DNA from: Pirellulaceae bacterium
GTDB taxonomy: Bacteria > Planctomycetota > Planctomycetia > Pirellulales > Pirellulaceae
NCBI GenBank assembly: GCA_022448315.1
Contig: JAKVCA010000040.1
Location: forward strand, 1-37,377
DNA length: 37,377 nucleotides
Direction of reading: 5' to 3'
The notes beneath the pieces were generated by a model that saw only the letters and a list, made by a program, of their open reading frames with translations, was not told the DNA's origin and did not search any database. The position numbers and the translations under genes are program-made. Below are positions 6,342 through 37,377 of this stretch, piece after piece; positions within the stretch are counted from its first letter, which is position 1; every line of letters begins with the position of its first letter.

Positions 6342-6791
6342 CTATTGGACCCGCGCAGGATGGTTTCGTGTGAAAAGAATTCAATCCGCAGGCCCTGACT
6401 CGTTTCTCCTGATTAAGGAAAACGGGTAAGCCTGAGGCACGTAAGCCGTCCTGGGCTGTCGAGGCTGTCCATAAAAGTTGTTTTCTTCTCTACAGACATC
6501 GGCCCAGTTTGACTGATCGTCATCACTTTTCTCCACGCTTCAAGATGTAACGACAATGACGACTTCGCGTTTTGGTCAAAGCTGCACAGCTATGCCATTT
6601 GCGGGCCTTGATTGGTCTACAATATCGTATGTCAATACAGAATATCGTACGTCAATACAGTGCGGCGATATTGTGCTGCAATGGACTGCAATGGTACGCG
6701 GATTCGAGGCGGTGACGCGTTGAATCCCTCGAACCACAAGCTTGCATTCAAGGGACGCTACCCGGTTGCTTCTTTATGCTGAAGGCAGAAT
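6342..6791. other. Divergent intergenic region (450 bases)
   Basis: Separates the RNase H-like gene (minus) from the PSCyt/PSD1 gene (plus). No credible coding frame. It contains the 20-base tandem duplication at 6621-6660. An 8-base inverted repeat (CAATATCG at 6620-6627 and CGATATTG at 6666-6673) flanks it. A shorter near-duplication of CTGCAATGG lies at 6676-6694. A TACAAT at 6618-6623 could be a -10 element, but no matching -35 is seen. Confidence 0.6.
6621..6660. repeat. 20-bp tandem duplication
   Basis: Two adjacent copies of AATATCGTATGTCAATACAG, differing at one base (T or C at unit position 10), about 130 bases upstream of the PSCyt/PSD1 start. Either a duplicated regulator site or a recent slippage event. 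Confidence 0.9.
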
Positions 6792-27640: not shown

Positions 27641-28228
27641 CTAGAGGACCCCTTTCGTACTCGGGATGCCGGTTTCGCGGTGGTCCTGCTCGACCGCCAT
27701 TCGAAATGCTCGGGCCAATCCTTTGAAGACTGCTTCACTGATATGGTGGCTGTTGCGACCATACCTCAGGTTGACGTGAAGGTTGCACGGCAGATTGCTC
27801 GAGGCGGATTGCCAGAAGTCGTAGACGAGTTCGGTGTCGAAGTCTCCAATTTTTTCGGTGGGGAAATTGACATTGAACACCCAGAAAGCTCGTCCGCTGA
27901 GATCGACTGCGGTATCGACCAGCGTTTCTTCCATCGGAAGAACAAAAAAACCGTACCGGCGAATGCCCTGCTTATTCCCCAAGGCTTCCCCAAAAACTTG
28001 CCCCAGACAAATGCCAATGTCTTCAACCGTGTGATGCTGGTCGATGTGCAAATCACCCTGAGCCTCAACCTTGAGATCGAATTTCCCGTGCTTCGCAAAA
28101 AGATCGAGCATGTGGTCGAGAAAACCGACACCTGTTGAAATTTGACTGACACCGTCGCCATCCAAATTCAACTCAAGTTCGATTTGTGTTTCTTTGGTCT
28201 TTCGCGCAATGGAAGCTTTGCGGGTCAT
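27641..28228 (-). CDS. hisB: Imidazoleglycerol-phosphate dehydratase
   Basis: Catalyses the sixth step of histidine synthesis, imidazoleglycerol phosphate to imidazole acetol phosphate, in the cytoplasm. The 195-residue length equals the monofunctional enzyme. Metal-binding and catalytic signatures are visible: [32 protein letters not shown], and [30 protein letters not shown] contains the second HH cluster. I chose the ATG at 28228, with CGGAG 6 bases upstream; a GTG two codons earlier is also in frame. It is the last gene of hisD-hisC-hisB, 42 bases after hisC. Confidence 0.97.
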
Positions 28229-28270
28229 CGTCACTCCGGGTACGCCATTGCCGCTGGCGTGATGGTGGTA

Positions 28271-29362
28271 TCAGGACGGAACACCAAGGTGTTGCAGGAC
28301 GGCCAGGAGCGCCTGGATCTGGTCCGAGGTGCCCACCGAAATTCGTAGACCGTCGCCCCAATTCGGGTAATCCATGTATCGAACCAAAATCCCCTGATCC
28401 TTAAGTTGCTGGTAAAGGGTTTGGTGGTGCTGTTTGGGATGGGTGCACCACACGAAATTGGCTTCCGATGGCTGAACCTCAAAACCGCATTCTGTAAGGC
28501 CTTGAGAAAGTAACTTGCGATTGGATTGAATGGATTGGAGGTTCTGTGACAACCAATCCTGATCCATCAAAGCAGCCGTGGCGGCAGCGATGGAAAGCGT
28601 ATCGCAGTTGTAAGAGTCCTTGACTTTGGCCAATTGTGTGACCAGTTCCGGTTGGGCAACCAGGTACCCAAATCGAAGTCCCGCGAGTCCATAGGATTTG
28701 CTTAACGTCCGGGTAACAATAACGTTATTGCAGTCGCGGACCAATTCGACACACGACTCCTGTGAAAAATCGGCATACGCCTCGTCCACCACCAGTGGGC
28801 AGGTGATCTGATCGGCCCAGTCTCGAATCTGCTCCTTTGAAAATCGGGTTCCGCTCGGACTGTTCGGGTTGGGCAAAAACATCAAACGCAGACCATCCGT
28901 CGGTGCGGTCCACTCGGGGCCGAGTGTCCAGTCTTTACGGAAAAGAACTTCGTCATATTCCGCACCCTGGATCTCGGCGAGCGTGCGATAGAGAACGTAG
29001 CTGGGATAGGGATACCGAATCTTTTCGTTTTCGCCGACGAAGGTGCGAGTCAGAATGGTGAGCAGGTCGTCACTACCATTGCCCGCGAGGATCCATTCGG
29101 GTTCGACTCCCCAATGCTGAGCGGCGGCAATTCGGAATGGAGTCGCGAATGCGTCGGGGTATCGCTGCAACGCCGCGGTTGCAGTCTGCTGGATCGCTTG
29201 GACAACTTTGTCAGACGGCGGAAATGGATTTTCGTTGGTGTTCAGCTTGATGACTTTCCCCACCCGCGGTTGCTCACCGGGTGCGTAGCCCCTCATCCGC
29301 TGAATATTCTCGCGAATCTGGCAGTTCCCTGAGGAAGCGGGTTGAGGAGAATTCTCGGTCAT
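28271..29362 (-). CDS. hisC: Histidinol-phosphate aminotransferase
   Basis: A PLP enzyme converting imidazole acetol phosphate to histidinol phosphate with glutamate. At 363 residues it is a normal length. Visible landmarks are KLNTNENPFPPS, RYPDAFATPFRIAAAQ, LAGNGSDDLLTIL, PNPNSPSGT, VVDEAYADF and the PLP-lysine motif TRTLSKSYGLAGLRFGY. DGLRISVGT supplies the substrate-binding arginine. It lies between hisD (94 bases upstream) and hisB on the same strand. The product feeds HisB's neighbouring step, so the three genes form a partial histidine operon; the other his genes are not in view. Confidence 0.97.
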   Translation of the reverse strand: MTENSPQPASSGNCQIRENIQRMRGYAPGEQPRVGKVIKLNTNENPFPPSDKVVQAIQQTATAALQRYPDAFATPFRIAAAQHWGVEPEWILAGNGSDDLLTILTRTFVGENEKIRYPYPSYVLYRTLAEIQGAEYDEVLFRKDWTLGPEWTAPTDGLRLMFLPNPNSPSGTRFSKEQIRDWADQITCPLVVDEAYADFSQESCVELVRDCNNVIVTRTLSKSYGLAGLRFGYLVAQPELVTQLAKVKDSYNCDTLSIAAATAALMDQDWLSQNLQSIQSNRKLLSQGLTECGFEVQPSEANFVWCTHPKQHHQTLYQQLKDQGILVRYMDYPNWGDGLRISVGTSDQIQALLAVLQHLGVPS

Positions 29363-29456
29363 CGTAGTCTCTCAAAGTCTACCGCTGTAACACACCCAGT
29401 CGGGTATCGGGAACGATCGATTGGTGGGTAACTCGATCGCATAAAACCTCGCACGT

Positions 29457-30824
29457 TTAATGCTTGAGCCGAATGTCTACGCTGGCTCGGTGTGCCGTCA
29501 AGCCTTCTTTGTCTGCAAGGTTCTGCACATCACCCGCGTCTGCCTTGAGCGAAGTCTGATCGTATTCGGTCACGCTGCCTGGCCGGAGAAAGTCGTTGGC
29601 ACAAAGGCCAGATGCCCATGTTGCAGTTCCACTCGTTGGCAGGACGTGTGATGGTCCCGCGACGTAGTCCCCCAACGCGACCGGCGTCCAGTTTCCGAGG
29701 AAAATTGCCCCAGCGTTCACAAGATGCGGCACAAGTCGATTGGCCTCTTCGATGGCGACATGCAGGTGTTCCGGGGCAATCATGTTGGTGATCTCGCACG
29801 CTTGTGATTCATCACGAACTAGAATCAGATAGCCATAGTCTCTGAGACTCTGCAACGTCAATTCGGATCGGGAGAGTAACTGACTCTGCTTCGAAAGTTC
29901 CGCCGCCGTCGCCTGGAGGGTTTGCTCACTCCATGTCACTAAAATGCTCGCACCGGGCGCGTGTTCTGCCTGAGCGAGAAGGTCGGCGGCGGTGAAGTCG
30001 GCTCTCGTCGATTCGTCGGCAATCACGACCACTTCGCTTGGACCCGCGATCGAGTCGATGTCGACCTCGCCGTAGACGAATTTTTTCGCCAAGGCAACGA
30101 ATAGATTGCCCGGCCCAACGATTTTGTCAACGCTCGGGACACCCTCGACACCATACGCGAGGGCCGCAACTGCTTGCGCGCCGCCCATCCGATACACTTC
30201 ATGAACGCCAAGCTCGTGGCAGGTTGCAAGGACATCAATGTTGTTTGCACCAAAGTCCGTTGGTGGCGCGACGACCGCCACCTCCTGCACACCCGCTGCC
30301 ATCGCGGGAACCGCCGTCATCAGGACGGTGGATGGATAAGCGGCAGCTCCTCCTGGGACACAGACTCCGACTCTTCTGAGTGGAACATAACGCTGCCGCA
30401 TCTTGATTCCCGGTTCGCGGGACACTTCAACATCTTGATGGAGAATCGCCCGTTGGAAATGCAAAATGTTGTCCCTAATACGCCGGACGCTCTTAAGGAA
30501 TTCAGGATCCGCTTGTTGGTACGCTTTTTCCAGCTCTTCCTCTGTCACTCTGAGCTTGTCCGCCCCATATTGGCTTCCGTCGATCTTCGCAGAGTATTCA
30601 AGAACTGCCTGAAGGCCCCGATCTCGGACGTCGACGCAAATCTTTTCAACAACCTGCTGGGGCGTCAGCGGTGTTCCAAAAACCTCGATCGTCTTTTTTC
30701 GACCCGCCTCGCTGACCACATTGCCTCTTGGGCTGAGTTTGGTGCGTAGGTCGCTGAGGACACTCGTGACATCACCGTCGCGGGCGTCAATTTGTTGAAT
30801 TTCCAAGGAAGACGAATCGGTCAT
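29457..30824 (-). CDS. hisD: Histidinol dehydrogenase
   Basis: A zinc enzyme oxidising histidinol to histidine in two NAD-dependent steps. The 455-residue length is typical. Motifs include VPLRRVGVCVPGGAAAYPST, YRMGGAQAVAALAYG and KIVGPGNLFVALAKK. DSIAGPSEVVVIADE, LLAQAEHAPGAS, NMIAPEHLHV and the C-terminal GPSHVLPTSGTA follow, matching the family throughout. I chose the ATG at 30824; a longer frame to 30890 adds an unrelated stretch. No clear Shine-Dalgarno. It is the first of hisD-hisC-hisB and lies 239 bases downstream of the XRE-cupin gene on the same strand. Confidence 0.97.
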   Translation of the reverse strand: MTDSSSLEIQQIDARDGDVTSVLSDLRTKLSPRGNVVSEAGRKKTIEVFGTPLTPQQVVEKICVDVRDRGLQAVLEYSAKIDGSQYGADKLRVTEEELEKAYQQADPEFLKSVRRIRDNILHFQRAILHQDVEVSREPGIKMRQRYVPLRRVGVCVPGGAAAYPSTVLMTAVPAMAAGVQEVAVVAPPTDFGANNIDVLATCHELGVHEVYRMGGAQAVAALAYGVEGVPSVDKIVGPGNLFVALAKKFVYGEVDIDSIAGPSEVVVIADESTRADFTAADLLAQAEHAPGASILVTWSEQTLQATAAELSKQSQLLSRSELTLQSLRDYGYLILVRDESQACEITNMIAPEHLHVAIEEANRLVPHLVNAGAIFLGNWTPVALGDYVAGPSHVLPTSGTATWASGLCANDFLRPGSVTEYDQTSLKADAGDVQNLADKEGLTAHRASVDIRLKH

Positions 30825-31062
30825 GTTGGATCGAATGAGAGGGAGAGGTGCACAAAAGCGTTGGGTTAAAAATCGGGTGGTTAACGCCATTTTAGTGTTG
30901 GCGGACCGAACAGGATGCGCACCGACCGCTGACTTCGCCGGGGCGGCATGGAAGCGTCTCTCGACGTCTACATCATAGGATGGCCAGCCCCATTGTTGCT
31001 AGACCCTGAGTCGAGCCAAGTCCACTTGTACCTGTTCGAAAGGAGGGAGTGGAATTCCGGAT

Positions 31063-31683
31063 CTAGGTGCTAACCGCACGCCCCGGATAGATGACCACCA
31101 GAAAGACGACCGCCTCTCCCTTTCCCGCATTTCGTAACGCATGAGGGCAATCCGCTGGATAGTGGGCGGAATCCCCAGGCTTCAACTTGCGCGTTTCTTC
31201 CCCGACGCAGAGTTCAAGCGTTCCTTTTTCTACGGTTACGAACTCGCGGGTGTGCCGAAAGTGGGGCGCACTTTGCATTTCACCCCCATGTTTCAGAGAA
31301 ACCTGATAGAACTCGACGTCTTTCTCCAAATGAAGCGGGGAGAGTGTGCGGACCTTGCAACTTGAATCATCTCGAAAGAGGAACTGGGGATCATTGGAAC
31401 GAATGACCTCCACCTGACTATCCTGTTCAGGCGTCCCAACCAATTCCCCCAGAGACAGTCCCAATGCTTTCGCGAGTCGATACGCGACCGCGAGCGTCGG
31501 ATTGGCAAGTCCTCGCTCGATTTGACTGATCATGGAAGAGCTGACTTCGCTGGCTTCACCAAGCTGCTGCAGGGTCCATCCGAGTTCTTTGCGTGCTGAC
31601 CGTATTTTTTCACAAAGTTGTCGGTGTAGTGGATCCATCGAGGAAGTGACCGGTGGCTCATCGGAAGGTTTCGGCGGCATCAT
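31063..31683 (-). CDS. XRE-family regulator with C-terminal cupin sensor
   Basis: A 206-residue transcription factor. An N-terminal helix-turn-helix of the XRE/Cro type (about 20-77) shows KIRSARKELGWTLQQLGEA, the recognition segment SSSMISQIERGLANPT and YRLAKALGLSLGELV. A linker leads to a cupin_2 domain (about 115-200): VSLKHGGEMQSAPHFRHTRE, VTVEKGTLELCVG, and LKPGDSAHYPADCPHALRN. Cupin domains in this class usually bind a small metabolite. It is divergent from tdh with a 106-base intergenic region containing a long dyad, so it probably controls tdh-kbl and itself, sensing threonine or a breakdown product (inferred). Starts at 31683, 31680 or GTG 31692 are all possible. Confidence 0.93.
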   Translation of the reverse strand: MMPPKPSDEPPVTSSMDPLHRQLCEKIRSARKELGWTLQQLGEASEVSSSMISQIERGLANPTLAVAYRLAKALGLSLGELVGTPEQDSQVEVIRSNDPQFLFRDDSSCKVRTLSPLHLEKDVEFYQVSLKHGGEMQSAPHFRHTREFVTVEKGTLELCVGEETRKLKPGDSAHYPADCPHALRNAGKGEAVVFLVVIYPGRAVST

Positions 31684-31733
31684 TTCACCCACAGTTTTCG
31701 GATTTGCGTGTTGATCGTGAGTTCCGACTGCGT

Positions 31734-31767
31734 TTTAATATAGTGGATCTGATTGCACTATTTTAAA
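31734..31767. promoter_or_regulatory. 34-bp dyad between XRE-cupin gene and tdh, candidate operator
   Basis: Arms TTTAATATAGTG (31734-31745) and CACTATTTTAAA (31756-31767) are reverse complements at 11 of 12 positions, separated by 10 bases. The centre spacing of about two helical turns suits a dimeric HTH regulator. It lies 23 bases before the tdh start and about 50 bases before the regulator start, where it would overlap both promoters. Confidence 0.7.
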
Positions 31768-31789
31768 TAAAATTCGCTCGAAGTCGAAG

Positions 31790-32866
31790 ATGAATGACCC
31801 CATGCCCGACCTGCCTGAAACCATGTTGGCCATCAAGAAGTTGAATGATGCCCCGGGACTGAACTGGTGTCCAGAGACCGTTGTTCCGGAAGTGGGAGCT
31901 CGGCAAGTGCTCATCCAGGTGACCCACGCGGGGATTTGCGGAACCGATCGGCACATTTACGAATGGGATGCCTGGAGTCGCAACCGCGTGAAGGTTGGAA
32001 TCACGACGGGGCACGAATTCGTAGGTCGAGTTGTCAAACTGGGGGATGCTGTCGAACGGGTCCAACTGGGCCAGCGCGTCAGCGCCGAGGGGCATATTGG
32101 CTGTGGTGTCTGCGAACCTTGCCGTACAGGGAACGCGCACATCTGTGAGAAAGTCGACATCCTTGGCATCGACTGCAATGGGTGCTTCGCGCAGTACGTG
32201 GCCGTTCCTGAGGAGAATGTCTGGACCGTCCACCCAGATATTCCTGATCATGTCGCTGCGGTTTTTGATCCGCTAGGGAATGCGGTTCACACGGTGATGG
32301 CGGCAGGAGTGAGTGGTCGCAGTGTGCTTGTTACGGGCGTCGGTATCATCGGATTGATGGCGGTAAACGTGGCGAAGGCGGCGGGGGCAGGCCAAGTGCT
32401 TGCGGTCGACGTGGATCCTCGACGACTGGAACTTGCGAAACATCTTGGCGCCGACTTGGTGCTGAACGGCAGCGAAGAATGGGTCTCCGAAGTGAGAAAG
32501 GCGACCCGAGGGCAGGGACCGCAGGTGCTTTTGGAGATGAGTGGGCACGCCGAAGCCATACGGATGGGTTTCGCATCGCTGCGGAATGGCGGCACGGCAG
32601 CCTTGCTAGGTATCCCCTCCAATGAAATTACTTTTGACCTCGCCAACGATATCATCTTCAAGGGTGCGACCGTACTTGGCATCAACGGCAGACGCATGTT
32701 TGAAACTTGGTATCAAATGGAAAATTTGCTGCTTTCAGATCGACTCGATCTTGAGCCCATCATCACCCACCAGATCGATATGCCCGATTATCAACGCGGT
32801 TTTGAACTGATGCAGAGCGGCGAAGGGATTAAAATCGTTTTGAAGATTCCACAGGAAAGTGATTGA
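31790..32866 (+). CDS. tdh: L-threonine 3-dehydrogenase
   Basis: Oxidises threonine to 2-amino-3-ketobutyrate with NAD+, the first step of the main threonine breakdown route. A 358-residue zinc-dependent medium-chain dehydrogenase. The catalytic zinc site is GICGTDRHIYEWD (C50) with GHEFVG (H75, E76). The structural zinc cysteines are C105, C108, C111 and C119. The Rossmann motif is VTGVGIIGLMAV. GRRMFETWYQM near the C-terminus is characteristic of Tdh. In-frame ATGs at 31802 and 31823 are alternative starts. kbl begins 5 bases after its stop, so the two enzymes are co-translated as in many bacteria. Confidence 0.96.
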   Translation: MNDPMPDLPETMLAIKKLNDAPGLNWCPETVVPEVGARQVLIQVTHAGICGTDRHIYEWDAWSRNRVKVGITTGHEFVGRVVKLGDAVERVQLGQRVSAEGHIGCGVCEPCRTGNAHICEKVDILGIDCNGCFAQYVAVPEENVWTVHPDIPDHVAAVFDPLGNAVHTVMAAGVSGRSVLVTGVGIIGLMAVNVAKAAGAGQVLAVDVDPRRLELAKHLGADLVLNGSEEWVSEVRKATRGQGPQVLLEMSGHAEAIRMGFASLRNGGTAALLGIPSNEITFDLANDIIFKGATVLGINGRRMFETWYQMENLLLSDRLDLEPIITHQIDMPDYQRGFELMQSGEGIKIVLKIPQESD

Positions 32867-32870
32867 TAAT

Positions 32871-34046
32871 ATGTCGAGTAAGCACTTCGAAGAACGTTGT
32901 CAGGAATTGCTCCAATCTTTGGAGACCAGCGGTCAAACCAAGCCGTTTTATGAAATTCAGGGACCGATGGGCCCCGTGGTGAAAATCGATGGCAAAGGTG
33001 AGATCATTGTCCTCTGCTCCAACAATTACCTTGGTCTCGCAGACCACCCTGAAGTGATTGAGGCTGGAATTCAGGGATTGAAGGACTACGGAGCTGGAAC
33101 GGCATCGGTTCGGTTTATTTGCGGAACCCTCTCATGTCATCGGCAGCTTGAAGAGGAGATCGCGGAATTGATCGGAACTCCCAGCAGCTTGAGTTATGTA
33201 AGTTGCTGGAATGCGAATGAGGCGGTGTTTCCGACGCTGACCGGCCCCGACGACATTCTATTGAGTGATGAATTGAATCACGCCAGTATCATCGACGGCT
33301 GTCGGTTGGTCAGCAAGAAGGTTGAAAAGCAGGTCTATAAACACAGTGACCTCGAAGATCTCGAGCGGCGGCTCAAAGGTTCCATGGATAAGGCGTGTCG
33401 CTGGGTCATCACCGATGGCGTTTTCAGCATGGAAGGAGACGTCTGCCGTCTGCCGGAGTTGATCGATCTTTGCGAAAAGTATGAAGCTTTACTGGTTTTG
33501 GATGATTCACATGGCATCGGTGTCCTCGGGCAGTCAGGACGCGGGACTCCCGAATTTTTTGACGCCATAGGCAAGGTCGATATCATCACGGGAACGCTCG
33601 GTAAAGCGCTCGGCGGAGCCGCAGGAGGTTATGTCGGAGCCAGTCAGTCTGCGATTCGCACGCTGGAACAGCGAGCTCGCCCGAGTCTTTTTTCCAACGC
33701 ACTTCCTGCAACCGTCGCGTACAGTGCTGGGAAAGCGATCGAGATTCTACGGAGAGATGACTCCATCGTGAGCCGTCTCCATGGAAACGTGTCCAAGCTA
33801 CGCCAAGGGTTTGCGGACCTTGGTTACGATTGTCCATCCTCGCCAACGGCCATCATACCCATCATGATCGGCGATGAAGCAGAGGCCATTCAAAAAAGTA
33901 AGCGACTTTTCGAGTTGGGCATCATGGTCATCGGGTTTGGATTTCCCGTTGTCCCTCGCGGAGAGGCGCGTCTTCGGGTTCAAGTCTCCGCAGCCCTACA
34001 GCAGGAACACATCGACCGTATTCTAGATGCCTTCGCCAAGCTTTAA
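32871..34046 (+). CDS. kbl: 2-Amino-3-ketobutyrate CoA ligase (glycine C-acetyltransferase)
   Basis: A PLP enzyme splitting 2-amino-3-ketobutyrate with CoA into glycine and acetyl-CoA, completing Tdh-dependent threonine breakdown. 391 residues, normal for the alpha-oxoamine synthase family. Motifs are CSNNYLGLADHPEV, GAGTASVRFICGT, SDELNHASIIDG, TDGVFSMEGDVC, LDDSHGIGVLG and the PLP-lysine motif GTLGKALGGA (K245), then RPSLFSNALP. The ATG at 32871 starts 5 bases after the tdh stop, with AGGAAA about 12 bases before it inside tdh. A GTG at 32859 would overlap tdh and is less likely. The unstable intermediate is normally channelled between the two enzymes. Confidence 0.97.
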   Translation: MSSKHFEERCQELLQSLETSGQTKPFYEIQGPMGPVVKIDGKGEIIVLCSNNYLGLADHPEVIEAGIQGLKDYGAGTASVRFICGTLSCHRQLEEEIAELIGTPSSLSYVSCWNANEAVFPTLTGPDDILLSDELNHASIIDGCRLVSKKVEKQVYKHSDLEDLERRLKGSMDKACRWVITDGVFSMEGDVCRLPELIDLCEKYEALLVLDDSHGIGVLGQSGRGTPEFFDAIGKVDIITGTLGKALGGAAGGYVGASQSAIRTLEQRARPSLFSNALPATVAYSAGKAIEILRRDDSIVSRLHGNVSKLRQGFADLGYDCPSSPTAIIPIMIGDEAEAIQKSKRLFELGIMVIGFGFPVVPRGEARLRVQVSAALQQEHIDRILDAFAKL

Positions 34047-34218
34047 TGGCGTTTTCGAAGAGTTGGCTTAACGTCGTCGGCGACCAAGGCATTGGTCTCG
34101 TGGGCCAACACTTTTCGATTCGCGTGGTGCCCAGAAATTGATTTTGGCTTGCCCGTTTCGGTTGGAAGATTCCGGGCCTTAAGAGTGAAAAAGAAATTGA
34201 AACCAGGGTGGGTGGTCT

Positions 34219-34252
34219 AGCCCATGTCTAAGGAAAGCCCATGTCCAAGGAA
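34219..34252 (+). repeat. 17-bp tandem duplication across aldolase start codon
   Basis: Two adjacent copies of AGCCCATGTCTAAGGAA, differing at one base, each containing an ATG. The ATG of the second copy is the gene start, with AAGGAA from the first copy as its Shine-Dalgarno. The ATG of the first copy (34224) opens an 11-codon frame (MSKESPCPRKR) ending at 34259 and overlapping the gene start out of frame. Confidence 0.85.
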
Positions 34253-35290
34253 ACGGTGATTGATCTTCGCAGCGATACGGTGACGCTCCCCAACCGGGAG
34301 ATGCGGCAGGCGATGTTGTCTGCGGAATTGGGAGACGACGTGATCGATGTCGATCCCACTGTCGAGCGACTGCAAAGAGTCATCGCGGAACGTTTGGGCC
34401 ATGAGGCCGCAATCTTTATGCCATCAGGCACGATGACGAATCAGGTCGGCCTGCGTCTGCATTGCCGACCCGGGGACGAATTTTTATGCGAAGAGCGATG
34501 TCATATCTTCAACTTCGAACAGGGGGCTTTTGCCCAACTGAGCGGACTGGTCGCTCGAACGATTCCCACCGAGACCGCCTTGTTGCAGTTGAGCGACGTG
34601 CAGTCGCTCATCCGACCTCCCAGTGAGCACATGACCCGGACCCGCCTCCTCTGCCTGGAAAATACGCACAACCTTGGTGGAGGACGAATTCATCCGTTAG
34701 AGACAGTTCAAGAACTTTGCCAGTGGGCCAAACAGAACGGGTTGGCCACGCACCTGGACGGCGCACGACTGTTCAATGCTGTTGTCGCGACAGGGATTGA
34801 GGCATCGCGCTGGGGCAGTCTCTTTGACTCGGTCAGCGTCTGCTTCAGCAAAGGGCTAGGCGCTCCAGTCGGCTCGGCACTCTGCGGCTCGCGAGATCTG
34901 ATTGATGAGGCTCGATTTCACCGAAAACTGTTTGGCGGTGCCATGCGGCAAAGCGGCGTTTTGGCTGCTGCCGCACTCTATGCGTTGGAACACCAGGTGG
35001 ATCGTCTTGAGGAGGATCATCGTCACGCAAAGATTCTTGCCGACGGCGTCCTCCGATCGGAGTCGTTGACGCTCGACCCTTCCGCGGTGGACTCCAATAT
35101 TGTGATCTTCAAGGTCGATCCCAACTGGGGGACTGCTCCCGAATTTGTTAAGGCGTTGGCAGATCGTGACGTGCGAATGATGCCTTTCAGTCGGCATCAT
35201 GTACGTGCGGTGACTCACATGCACGTCGATGAGCCAATGGCCAAACACGCGGCAGCGGTGGTTGAAGCCGTCGCTGCATGGGACGCCTGA
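34241..35290 (+). CDS. ltaE: Low-specificity L-threonine aldolase
   Basis: A PLP enzyme cleaving threonine (and allo-threonine) to glycine and acetaldehyde, a route parallel to Tdh-Kbl. 349 residues. Family motifs are IDLRSDTVTLPNREMR, GDDVIDVDPTVERL, FMPSGTMTNQVGL, ERCHIFNFEQGA with the ring-stacking histidine (H89), LENTHNLGGG, HLDGARLFNA (D173), and the PLP-lysine motif CFSKGLGAPVGSALCG (K204). It follows kbl after 195 bases on the same strand and completes a threonine-breakdown neighbourhood. The 34-bp dyad upstream of tdh is not repeated here, so control may differ. A duplicated start region precedes it. Confidence 0.94.
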   Translation: MSKETVIDLRSDTVTLPNREMRQAMLSAELGDDVIDVDPTVERLQRVIAERLGHEAAIFMPSGTMTNQVGLRLHCRPGDEFLCEERCHIFNFEQGAFAQLSGLVARTIPTETALLQLSDVQSLIRPPSEHMTRTRLLCLENTHNLGGGRIHPLETVQELCQWAKQNGLATHLDGARLFNAVVATGIEASRWGSLFDSVSVCFSKGLGAPVGSALCGSRDLIDEARFHRKLFGGAMRQSGVLAAAALYALEHQVDRLEEDHRHAKILADGVLRSESLTLDPSAVDSNIVIFKVDPNWGTAPEFVKALADRDVRMMPFSRHHVRAVTHMHVDEPMAKHAAAVVEAVAAWDA

Positions 35291-35421: not shown

Positions 35422-37377
35422 TCAGACCCCGATGGCGGTCTCAATCTCAGGTACAACGTCTGGCGGTTGAACGCGGTCTTCCGTGTACTGGTCGCCTTTC
35501 TGACGCACGTCGTTCAGATTGACGATGTAGGCGTAAATATCGAAGGCGACGGGGACCAGCACGAGAACGAGAACTGTCGCGAACAACACGCCAAAACAGA
35601 GGCTGGTCGCCATGGGAATGAGCACTTGAGCCTGAAAGCTTGTTTCCAGCAACATTGGAATCAAACCGGCCATGGTAGTCAGGCTCGTCAGGACCACAGG
35701 GCGGAATCGTCGTTGACCGGCCAGTACGATGGACTTTCTGATGGAGTGTCCCTCGTTGATCATGCGATTGATGAAATCCAACAGCACGATGGAGTCGTTG
35801 ACCACGACGCCTGTTAAGGCAATCAATCCGAACATGCTGAAAATGGTGAACTCAAGGTTCAGCACGTAGTGACCAACAACGGCTCCGATGATCCCGAACG
35901 GAATGATGACCAGGACGATCAACGGTTGCAGGTAGGATCGAAATTCGAGGGTGAGCAGGATGTACATGACAATGGTCGCAATCCCAAATCCAATAAACAT
36001 GCTCGCAAATGACTCGACGGTTTGTTGTTGTTGACCTTCCCAGCGGATGAAAATTCCCGGATATTTTTCCAGAAGTCCTGGAACAAAATCACTTCGCAGT
36101 TCTTGAACGATGGAAAAGGAGTTTGCTTTCGTGCGGTCCACATCGGCCAAAACGGTAATCGATCTCATCTGGTCGATACGATTGATTTCGCTTGGTCCAC
36201 GGTTGAACGTGAACTCCGCGAGTTCGGTGATGGGTCGCTCGATGCCGTCGGTGCCGCGAATACGTAACCGATTGAAGTCATCCATGCTGCGGCGATTCTC
36301 CTGAGGGTAACGCACCATCAATTTGACTTCATGCCGACCCCTCTGCAATCTCATCACCTCTTCACCGTAAAACGCGGCACGTGCGGTGCGGACGACTTCT
36401 TCCAGCGTGACTCCGAGCGAACGTCCCGCTTCGGTCAGTTTGATCTGGAGTTCCCATTTTCCCGGTTGATTGTCATCTTCAATGTCGAAGACACCGTCGT
36501 AGGTTGCCAGTTTTGCTTTGCAGTCTTCCACGGCCGCCTTGAGCTGATCAATATCCTGACGTTTGGCAAGAAGCTTGAATTCAATGGGAGTTCCGCCGGG
36601 GCCCATCGATTCGGAAACGAATTTCACCGTTTCTGCTCCAACCACCGGGCCTACTTTCTTTCGCCACTGAGCCAAGATCTGCTCACTCGGTAATCTGCCT
36701 GACTCGATCGGGACCAGAGCGACACGCACGCTTCCCGCATGGCCCCCGTCAGTATTGCCACCGGGGCCAACCGCTTGAGGGTTTCTGACGGAGCCAACGC
36801 ATCGATGAACCGCCTCAATGATTCCTGGCTTTCCGGCGTCCAGCTGCTCCTGATTGATTTCGTAAATCGCCTGCTGCATCCTTTGGGTCGCGGTATCGGT
36901 ATATCTCGCTGGAGTTCCATCCGGATAAATGGCACTCGCTTCGATGGTCCGCGCATCCATTTTTGGGAAAAACTCAAATGGGACGAGACCGCTGAGAAAC
37001 ATGCCTACCATGACCAAAACAGCGGCGTTCAGTCCTGCGATGACTGTCGCTTTGTTGCTCAGGCACCAGGAAATCGATGGGCCATAATATCGATTCACCA
37101 TCGTCTCCATCAACGAGACGGCCCGTTTATTGAGCCAGTTGAATCCTTTCAACGTGAAACTGAGCGGCGAGAGGAGCCAGCTTAAAGAACGGAAAAACAG
37201 ATTGTTGTCATGGGAAAGATGCACTGGAAGGACAAACGTGCTTTCCAGTAGGGAGATGATCAACATCCCAATGACGGCCAAGGGCATCACGGCGATGAAC
37301 TTGCCCATCACCCCGCTCACGAAGAGCAAGGGACAGAACGCCACGATCGTCGTCGTTACGGATGCGGTGACCGATGG
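35422..37377 (-). CDS. RND-family efflux transporter, C-terminal portion (5' end beyond window)
   Basis: About 650 residues of an inner-membrane RND pump of the AcrB/HAE1 or CzcA type, read through the right edge. It starts within the N-half membrane bundle (TTTIVAFCPLLFVSGVMGKF, then PLAVIGMLIISLLESTFVLP). The second large periplasmic domain follows, then six C-half helices including FIGFGIATIVMYILLTLEF, LIVLVIIPFGIIGAVVGHY, and the RND motif FGLIALTGVVVNDSIVLLDF followed by RRFRPVVLTSLTTMAGLIPM. The N-half helix with the proton-relay aspartates lies just outside the window. Substrate is unknown. It is convergent with the aldolase gene. Confidence 0.95.
   Translation of the reverse strand, partial: PSVTASVTTTIVAFCPLLFVSGVMGKFIAVMPLAVIGMLIISLLESTFVLPVHLSHDNNLFFRSLSWLLSPLSFTLKGFNWLNKRAVSLMETMVNRYYGPSISWCLSNKATVIAGLNAAVLVMVGMFLSGLVPFEFFPKMDARTIEASAIYPDGTPARYTDTATQRMQQAIYEINQEQLDAGKPGIIEAVHRCVGSVRNPQAVGPGGNTDGGHAGSVRVALVPIESGRLPSEQILAQWRKKVGPVVGAETVKFVSESMGPGGTPIEFKLLAKRQDIDQLKAAVEDCKAKLATYDGVFDIEDDNQPGKWELQIKLTEAGRSLGVTLEEVVRTARAAFYGEEVMRLQRGRHEVKLMVRYPQENRRSMDDFNRLRIRGTDGIERPITELAEFTFNRGPSEINRIDQMRSITVLADVDRTKANSFSIVQELRSDFVPGLLEKYPGIFIRWEGQQQQTVESFASMFIGFGIATIVMYILLTLEFRSYLQPLIVLVIIPFGIIGAVVGHYVLNLEFTIFSMFGLIALTGVVVNDSIVLLDFINRMINEGHSIRKSIVLAGQRRFRPVVLTSLTTMAGLIPMLLETSFQAQVLIPMATSLCFGVLFATVLVLVLVPVAFDIYAYIVNLNDVRQKGDQYTEDRVQPPDVVPEIETAIGV

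Follow-up and report, generated by a model that had tools for sequence, protein, structure and literature searches.

The usual account of the threonine-breakdown operon tdh-kbl in Escherichia coli places it under Lrp, a global regulator with a different fold. In the same organism, the XRE-cupin type of regulator, in which a helix-turn-helix (HTH) domain is joined to a cupin domain, is represented by PuuR, the repressor of an amine catabolic operon with the site AAAATATAATGAACA. Here, we describe a locus at which such a regulator and such an operon stand together: a gene for an XRE-cupin protein (31063-31692, minus strand) divergent from tdh (31790-32866, plus strand) and a kbl-like gene (32871-34046, plus strand; alternative start GTG 32859). 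The locus lies in a stretch of 37,377 bases from a Pirellulaceae bacterium (contig JAKVCA010000040.1 of assembly GCA_022448315.1), which was analysed as a whole and is called the window below. Sequence comparison shows the pairing of this kind of regulator with tdh, a row of candidate operator boxes between the two genes, the register of these boxes and their position over the promoter, and on that footing the regulator is very probably a dedicated local switch of tdh-kbl.

Several described systems approach this arrangement from different sides. XRE-cupin factors of Pseudomonas are presented as inhibitors of neighbouring metabolic genes that use palindromic sites (PMC7901475). In Pseudomonas putida, DbuR is reported to protect 44 bp around the 20-bp palindrome AATTCTCATATATTAGAATT, which lies over the -10 element (PMC12724383). 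A regulator close to threonine genes is found in Burkholderia xenovorans, where MgxR (Bxe_B3018) lies near tdh-kbl; a second regulator gene, bxe_B3022, is present there (PMC4349456). Threonine, Planctomycetes and Halomonas are absent from the main text of a large survey of XRE motifs (PMC12565409). A preliminary description of the window knew of no described regulator of XRE-cupin type for tdh, and literature searches turned up none either: in the open-licence literature searched, mostly at title level, no XRE or cupin regulator of tdh or of threonine was recognised.

Pairing of the Regulator With tdh

The HTH and cupin layout of XRE-cupin local metabolic regulators is present in the window protein, which matches HTH_3 with 59.3 bits and Cupin_2 with 58.6 bits. 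Both scores exceed the Pfam cut-offs and, together with the open reading frames (ORFs), bear out the preliminary description of an XRE-cupin regulator divergent from tdh-kbl. The protein has 209 residues if GTG 31692 is its start and 191 if ATG 31638 is, and its well-aligned part begins at ATG 31638. The gap to tdh measures 97 bases from GTG 31692 and 106 from ATG 31683; the latter is presumably the start behind the 106-base gap given earlier, which agrees with it. The window tdh encodes an L-threonine 3-dehydrogenase of a divergent planctomycete kind, which passes the equivalog model NF003808 (437.2 bits; cut-off 380) and stays below a second one, TIGR00692 (411.9 bits; cut-off 458.35). The next gene, probably for a glycine C-acetyltransferase, misses both Kbl equivalog cut-offs (NF005394, 455.2 bits and just below 460; TIGR01822, 420.2 bits against 493). 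It is named kbl-like because of its place after tdh and because the same kind of kbl in the relative L037 clears the NF005394 cut-off with 469.5 bits.

Strong matches to the regulator (E 1e-54 or better) were found in 11 of 60 related genomes, the window's own included, and a family-wide search at E 1e-40 found the regulator in 30 of 241 genomes. Every one of the 11 regulator-bearing genomes has tdh; ten matches reach E 1e-60 or better, and in the remaining genome, G025, a fragment of the gene lies at a contig end. The gene is also present in 32 of the other 49 genomes, so that the regulator does not accompany every tdh. A scan of named genomes for the pattern covered 80 loci, the best of 566 confirmed relatives, and its counts therefore describe the closest relatives only; there, tdh lay within 500 bp of the regulator in 61 loci and at 906 or 1377 bp in two (in L071, kbl precedes it), and the contig ended within 700 bp in five. 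Wherever adjacent cases offered enough room to see it, kbl was usually present too (42 of 49).

The main comparison used 110 loci, a set freed of the weak regulator matches L012-L030 and of ten repeats of the same place (L111-L114, L116, L118-L120, L122 and L127). Adjacency to metabolic genes, a trait of XRE-cupin local regulators, is evident in this set, in which 89 of the 110 loci have tdh on the regulator's divergent side. Some near-copies remain among the 110 (e.g., L008 and L057); removal of six from the 89 tdh-bearing loci gave 83 intergenic regions. Planctomycetota, Verrucomicrobiota and Pseudomonadota (Halomonadaceae, Halieaceae, Cellvibrionaceae and others) are represented among the loci, as is Acidobacteriota by a single bin (L101); many of the sources are metagenome bins, and their taxon labels may be wrong. 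In the counted loci, the regulators are between 45% (L083) and 64% (L002) identical to that of the window. Some handles denote the same place (G024, L057 and L008; G030 and L063), L057 and L063 being named Pirellulaceae and G024 and G030 belonging to the same planctomycete family as the window's genome; Mariniblastus clusters with this family in the regulator tree.

Two kinds of tdh, about 43% identical to each other, accompany the regulator. The first is about 40-47% identical to the window tdh, and its samples L074, L031 and L049 pass both equivalog models. The second, met in planctomycetes, is about 70% identical to the window tdh; of the two models, its scored samples, the window and L037, pass NF003808 only. 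On the regulator tree, three changes suffice to explain the second kind, compared with a mean of 18.7 after shuffling. This tree, like the residue counts below, was based on 102 sequences, with L063, L072, L057, L124 and further near-copies left out.

A Tandem Row of Candidate Operators

The conserved unit between regulator and tdh is a 16-bp pseudopalindrome, TTCCAnTATAnTGGAA, which is repeated about 20-23 bp apart and was first visible by eye in the intergenic regions. Unseeded expectation maximization on a flat background was of no use, as it drifted towards G+C composition; an exact dyad count served as the unbiased test, and a seeded weight matrix was used only with its support. The count covered 5376 dyads in 78 of the 83 regions (60-430 bases). 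GGAA-4-TTCC ranked top with 16 of the 78 regions (0.31 expected), and TTCC-8-GGAA and TCCA-6-TGGA occurred in 12 (0.5 expected) and 10 (0.29 expected), respectively. In none of 100 resampled sets did any dyad exceed six regions.

With the full matrix, which was trained on the same 83 regions that it scores, four boxes were recognised in 50 regions, two in 19 and three in nine; five boxes were seen in two regions, and six, one and none in a single region each. By chance, 0.22 boxes per region would be expected. A pair of boxes at 19-24 bp is present in 79 of the 83 regions. Among 200 neighbouring pairs, the spacing was 20 bp in 96, 21 bp in 30, 23 bp in 24, 19 bp in 19 and 22 bp in nine. In a held-out check, a matrix was built from 29 proteobacterial regions and applied to the remaining 54, among them the window; 47 of the 54 had a pair with each box over 4 bits, a level at which at most about 1% of shuffled regions qualify. 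A control compared tdh genes with and without an adjacent regulator, for which 30 of 42 tdh matches were retrieved and all 30 were scored: the pair score was at least 20.3 at all six tdh genes with an adjacent regulator and at most 9.0 at all 24 without one, the window being unseen by that matrix and the other five of the six belonging to its training set. Boxes that occur only where the regulator is adjacent, and a pairing that extends over at least three phyla and two kinds of tdh, strengthen the earlier proposal of a dedicated local regulator of tdh-kbl. Lack of a conserved site before the tdh of regulator-bearing relatives would have refuted that proposal; this check did not refute it, as the boxes are conserved there.

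The window itself contains candidate box 3, TTTTAATATAGTGGAT, at 31733-31748 (15.2 bits with the full model and 14.7 bits with a model that excludes the window) and candidate box 4, TTGCACTATTTTAAAT, at 31753-31768 (8.1 bits). Their centres lie 20 bp apart, the commonest spacing in the relatives. Scored with a matrix blind to the window, the pair attains 22.8 bits, a value reached in none of 5000 resamplings of the gap (maximum 20.4); it is the best plus-strand pair in the 37-kb window, followed by one of 18.2 bits at 6615. The preliminary description had reported a dyad at 31734-31767, 11 of 12 bases paired with a 10-base spacer, and its arms are exactly as reported (31734-31745 and 31756-31767; 12 nucleotides (nt) each, 92% complementary, 10 nt apart). 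When the 97-base gap was resampled 3000 times with a first-order Markov model, an 11-of-12 dyad with a spacer of 3-20 arose in 13 cases, so that chance is an unlikely source, a result not decisive by itself. The arms of the dyad are the facing halves of the two adjacent boxes, and the operator once read as one 34-bp dyad is better described as two copies of the tandem 16-bp pseudopalindrome.

The spacing within and between boxes indicates which unit would be bound. In the relatives, the inner gap of TTCCA-6-TGGAA is exactly 6 in 39 cases, and no other gap up to 20 has more than three. The outer gap of TGGAA-x-TTCCA is spread over 3-8, with peaks of 12 cases at 4 and 13 at 7. Because the inner gap is rigid and the outer gap loose, the TATA-centred 16-bp box is likely the unit bound by a dimer, and the earlier dyad, centred between boxes, is likely a by-product of two adjoining palindromes.

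Position Over the Promoter

In 47 of the 83 regions, four boxes follow one another at 19-24 bp, and in 45 of these 47 a TTG occupies the -35 place of box 2, which reads TCTTGcAt. Inside box 3, 16-18 nt past the TTG, lies a -10-like hexamer, which takes one of two offsets in 42 of these 45 regions; it was picked as the best of spacers 15-19 and is thus a fit rather than an independent find. Across the 79 regions with a pair, the median distance is 26 bases from the end of the last box to the approximate tdh start and 22 bases from the first box to an in-frame start codon of the regulator. A palindromic site near the promoter, a further trait of XRE-cupin regulators, is present here as conserved boxes over the -35 and -10 elements. 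Because the boxes cover both elements, repression is favoured over activation, which narrows the earlier suggestion that the protein represses or activates; the box positions fit repression of tdh together with autoregulation, both of which we infer from position.

In the window, a promoter-like pair for the regulator, TTAAAA-18 nt-TATATT, was matched at 31737-31766 on the minus strand, inside boxes 3 and 4; as the product of a consensus scan, this match is by itself not evidence of function. A weak candidate promoter for tdh, TTGATC-17 nt-TTTAAT at 31711-31739 on the plus strand, was recognised by eye on the analogy of the box 2/box 3 promoters of the relatives, and the consensus scan returned no plus-strand promoter at 31711-31739.

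The Regulator Protein

The predicted model of the regulator (mean predicted local distance difference test score (pLDDT) of 89.2) combines helices at residues 3-67 with strands at residues 87-183 and contains a SinR-kind HTH followed by a small cupin barrel. The cupin part aligns with 6b8w over 95 residues (Z 15.5; root-mean-square deviation 1.6). The best full-length solved relative is 1Y9Q, an HTH_3 regulator of Vibrio cholerae (profile E 4.6e-24; Foldseek rank 1), which is 27% identical to the window regulator and is reported to carry zinc and a methionine in its cupin pocket. With numbering from ATG 31638, H126, E132 and H166 are invariant in all 102 sequences, consistent with what a metal-type cupin pocket would need. 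By the same numbering, the window regulator has Ser34 (codon 31537-31539, minus strand) where 99 of the 102 sequences have Arg, and Glu31 where 98 of 102 relatives have Gly; both residues presumably lie in or beside the recognition helix, a placement made by analogy with the family. The window boxes are degenerate at the CC/GG positions. Taken together, these deviations may reflect coevolution of regulator and boxes, in what is a single case. Membership in PuuR was considered and rejected, the window protein scoring 32 bits against the NF007408 cut-off of 211.

Extent of the Regulon

The reach of the switch was assessed with a box-pair model aligned from 35 of 69 pairs. In the window's own genome, where 150 of 416 first-look candidates were scored, the model lists a single place at E up to 10, the tdh locus; the window's own pair is part of the model, and the own-genome E-values are somewhat flattered. 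Among 15 regulator-bearing relatives, 11 have a box-pair match at E up to 1, and the best match adjoins the regulator in nine of these 11. Within the limits of a model with one spacing, the switch looks local.

Proposed Mechanism and Alternatives

We consider it probable that the window protein, an XRE-cupin regulator, locally represses tdh-kbl and its own gene and is released by threonine or a product of the pathway. In this mechanism, dimers of the regulator would bind the tandem row of 16-bp pseudopalindromes, the centres of which are about two helical turns apart; dimers would thus sit on the same face of the DNA and could bind side by side, perhaps cooperatively. In its fullest form, the four-box row described above, box 1 lies near the regulator start, box 2 over the -35 element, box 3 over the -10 element and box 4 just past the presumed transcription start, and the window retains only boxes 3 and 4 in recognisable form. 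Occupied boxes would exclude RNA polymerase from tdh-kbl and probably also from the regulator gene. Threonine, 2-amino-3-ketobutyrate or aminoacetone may then bind the metal-type cupin pocket and cause the repressor to leave the DNA, after which threonine would be broken down to glycine and acetyl-CoA. With less assurance, we lean towards a broader view in which the relatives make up a hitherto undescribed family of threonine-catabolism repressors ("TdhR") in Planctomycetota, Verrucomicrobiota, Pseudomonadota and perhaps Acidobacteriota. In such a family, up to four in-phase operators would enclose the promoter in the manner of phage repressors, and the module would have been kept with its function across two kinds of tdh.

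Other readings of the site differ in what would be bound and to what effect. Chance in an A+T-rich gap did produce 11-of-12 dyads in 13 of 3000 resamplings, but a random origin of the dyad, or its function as a terminator or RNA hairpin, is almost certainly wrong: the boxes of the relatives are conserved in register with the promoter, none of the 5000 resamplings reached the window pair score, and no terminator-like site was found in 31600-31900. The terminator or hairpin reading was rejected on this conservation and the missing site. Nor is the operator at all likely to be a single 34-bp dyad, with one dimer on two 12-base arms separated by a 10-base spacer. The dyad does exist, and its facing halves, GGAA-4-TTCC, form the commonest exact dyad (16 of 78 regions); against this, the gap inside the boxes is rigid (39 cases at 6), the gap between boxes is spread over 3-8, and four-box regions are unreadable as one dyad. 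Activation of tdh-kbl by the regulator is improbable, even if box 1 lies upstream of the -35 element in the four-box regions (47 of 83). The boxes also extend over the -35, the -10 and the start region, which is the usual place for repression, and the Pseudomonas XRE-cupin factors are described as exclusive inhibitors (PMC7901475).

The preferred reading, a local repressor of tdh-kbl that responds to threonine or its products, must also be set against a number of observations that weigh on the other side. Not all XRE-family proteins are repressors: the DbuR study cites a title that credits NceR with activation (PMC12724383). The window has a weak box 4 (8.1 bits) and lacks recognisable boxes 1 and 2. 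Four of the 83 regions are without a pair at 19-24 bp (L039, L078, L080 and L101, the last with a region of only 27 bases), and 12 of the best 80 loci of 566 lack tdh within about 4 kb although there is room for it. For G030 and G022, the top box-pair match falls on a contig other than that of the regulator, and four of the 15 genomes have no match (G019, G021, G024 and G230); two of these four, G024 and G230, carry boxes with a different spacing, so that the model misses arrays not spaced by 20. At L008/L057, the regulator of G024 stands with four boxes divergent from the gene for phosphate acetyltransferase (pta), and the tdh of this genome (L163) is without boxes, which makes a switch of target from tdh to the pta side possible. 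Two boxes lie beside a fatty-oxidation (beta-oxidation) gene in L042, and in L194 (G004:C23:42500-48500) the order is regulator, two boxes, putA, tdh, kbl. Boxes are also kept with no tdh within 4 kb in L085 and L099 (two each) and in L067, L082 and L103 (one each); L067 adjoins metH, and L082 a gene of similar appearance. At L041, L105, L107, L108 and L110, tdh and boxes above 8 bits are both missing, as they are at L004 and L121 within the short stretches examined. Given that some relatives stand next to pta, putA, a fatty-oxidation gene or metH, not every member needs to sense threonine. These close relatives, beside pta, putA-tdh-kbl, the beta-oxidation gene and metH, speak for a local switch with a wider signal, such as acetyl-CoA supply or another amino acid, for which tdh-kbl would be only the commonest target. 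We regard this alternative as rather doubtful without being far-fetched: most of the closest relatives found, from at least three phyla, adjoin tdh, and both kinds of tdh, only about 43% identical, are paired with the regulator, which points to a shared substrate or product.

Neighbouring Genes and Other Features

Downstream of kbl, on the same strand and 194 bases away, lies a gene for an aldolase dependent on pyridoxal phosphate, of the GntG/threonine aldolase kind (34241-35290, plus strand; NF041359, 399.8 bits, cut-off 230), and a gene of this kind also stands 3' of tdh-kbl in L037. No terminator-like or promoter-like site was found in 33900-34400, and the gene may be co-transcribed with tdh-kbl. 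Its product could provide a second route from threonine to glycine. On the other flank, the regulator is followed on its own strand by hisD, hisC and hisB (27641-30890, minus strand), with 172 bases between its end and the start of the hisD ORF, and read-through from the regulator promoter into these genes is conceivable. A large ORF at 35422-37377 on the minus strand, open at the window edge, resembles an RND-type efflux transporter by eye. At 6615-6650, the second-best plus-strand box pair of the window (18.2 bits, spacing 20; GTCTACAATATCGTAT and ATACAGAATATCGTAC) overlaps no ORF of 60 residues and is not among the genome-wide model matches. Outside the window, the L194 locus unites genes for proline and threonine breakdown in one divergent row.

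Comparison With Known Systems

The operon at this locus corresponds in function to the one under Lrp in E. coli, and the window regulator differs from Lrp in being local and of the XRE-cupin type. The PuuR site resembles the right half of the box, whereas the pathway that PuuR controls is a different one. A local regulator that is conserved in several phyla and has a defined operator would offer a testable answer to the question of how bacteria other than E. coli decide on threonine breakdown and, if its effector is confirmed, a possible threonine sensor. The regulator-operator-tdh module spans at least three phyla, a stronger finding than the preliminary description could know. In practical terms, the box motif can serve to find further family members, and box spacing in helical turns lets one ask whether XRE-cupin repressors bind together like phage repressors.

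Among proteins near tdh-kbl, MgxR is unlike the window regulator in that it controls an adjacent operon that includes putative transporter genes and is responsive to methylglyoxal, and the words "cupin" and "xre" are absent from the main text of its report (PMC4349456). The PsdR, PauR, ErfA and other factors of Pseudomonas aeruginosa are alike in combining HTH and cupin domains, in standing beside metabolic genes and in having palindromic sites and a small local regulon; "tdh" is absent from the main text of the paper on them (PMC7901475). The PsdR site, given as TTAAGxxxxxCTTAA, differs from the 16-bp box (PMC10965056). DbuR, as far as its report was available, is also alike, being an XRE-family repressor of an amino-acid catabolic operon with a palindrome that resembles the box (TTCT..TATA..AGAA) and a protected stretch of 44 bp, about the length of two boxes; unlike the window regulator, it governs genes for D-branched-chain amino acids and has one palindrome rather than a tandem row (PMC12724383). 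Judged by its predicted domains and sites, the window regulator belongs to a known kind, the local XRE-cupin repressors, within which it is set apart by an unusually regular row of putative operators.

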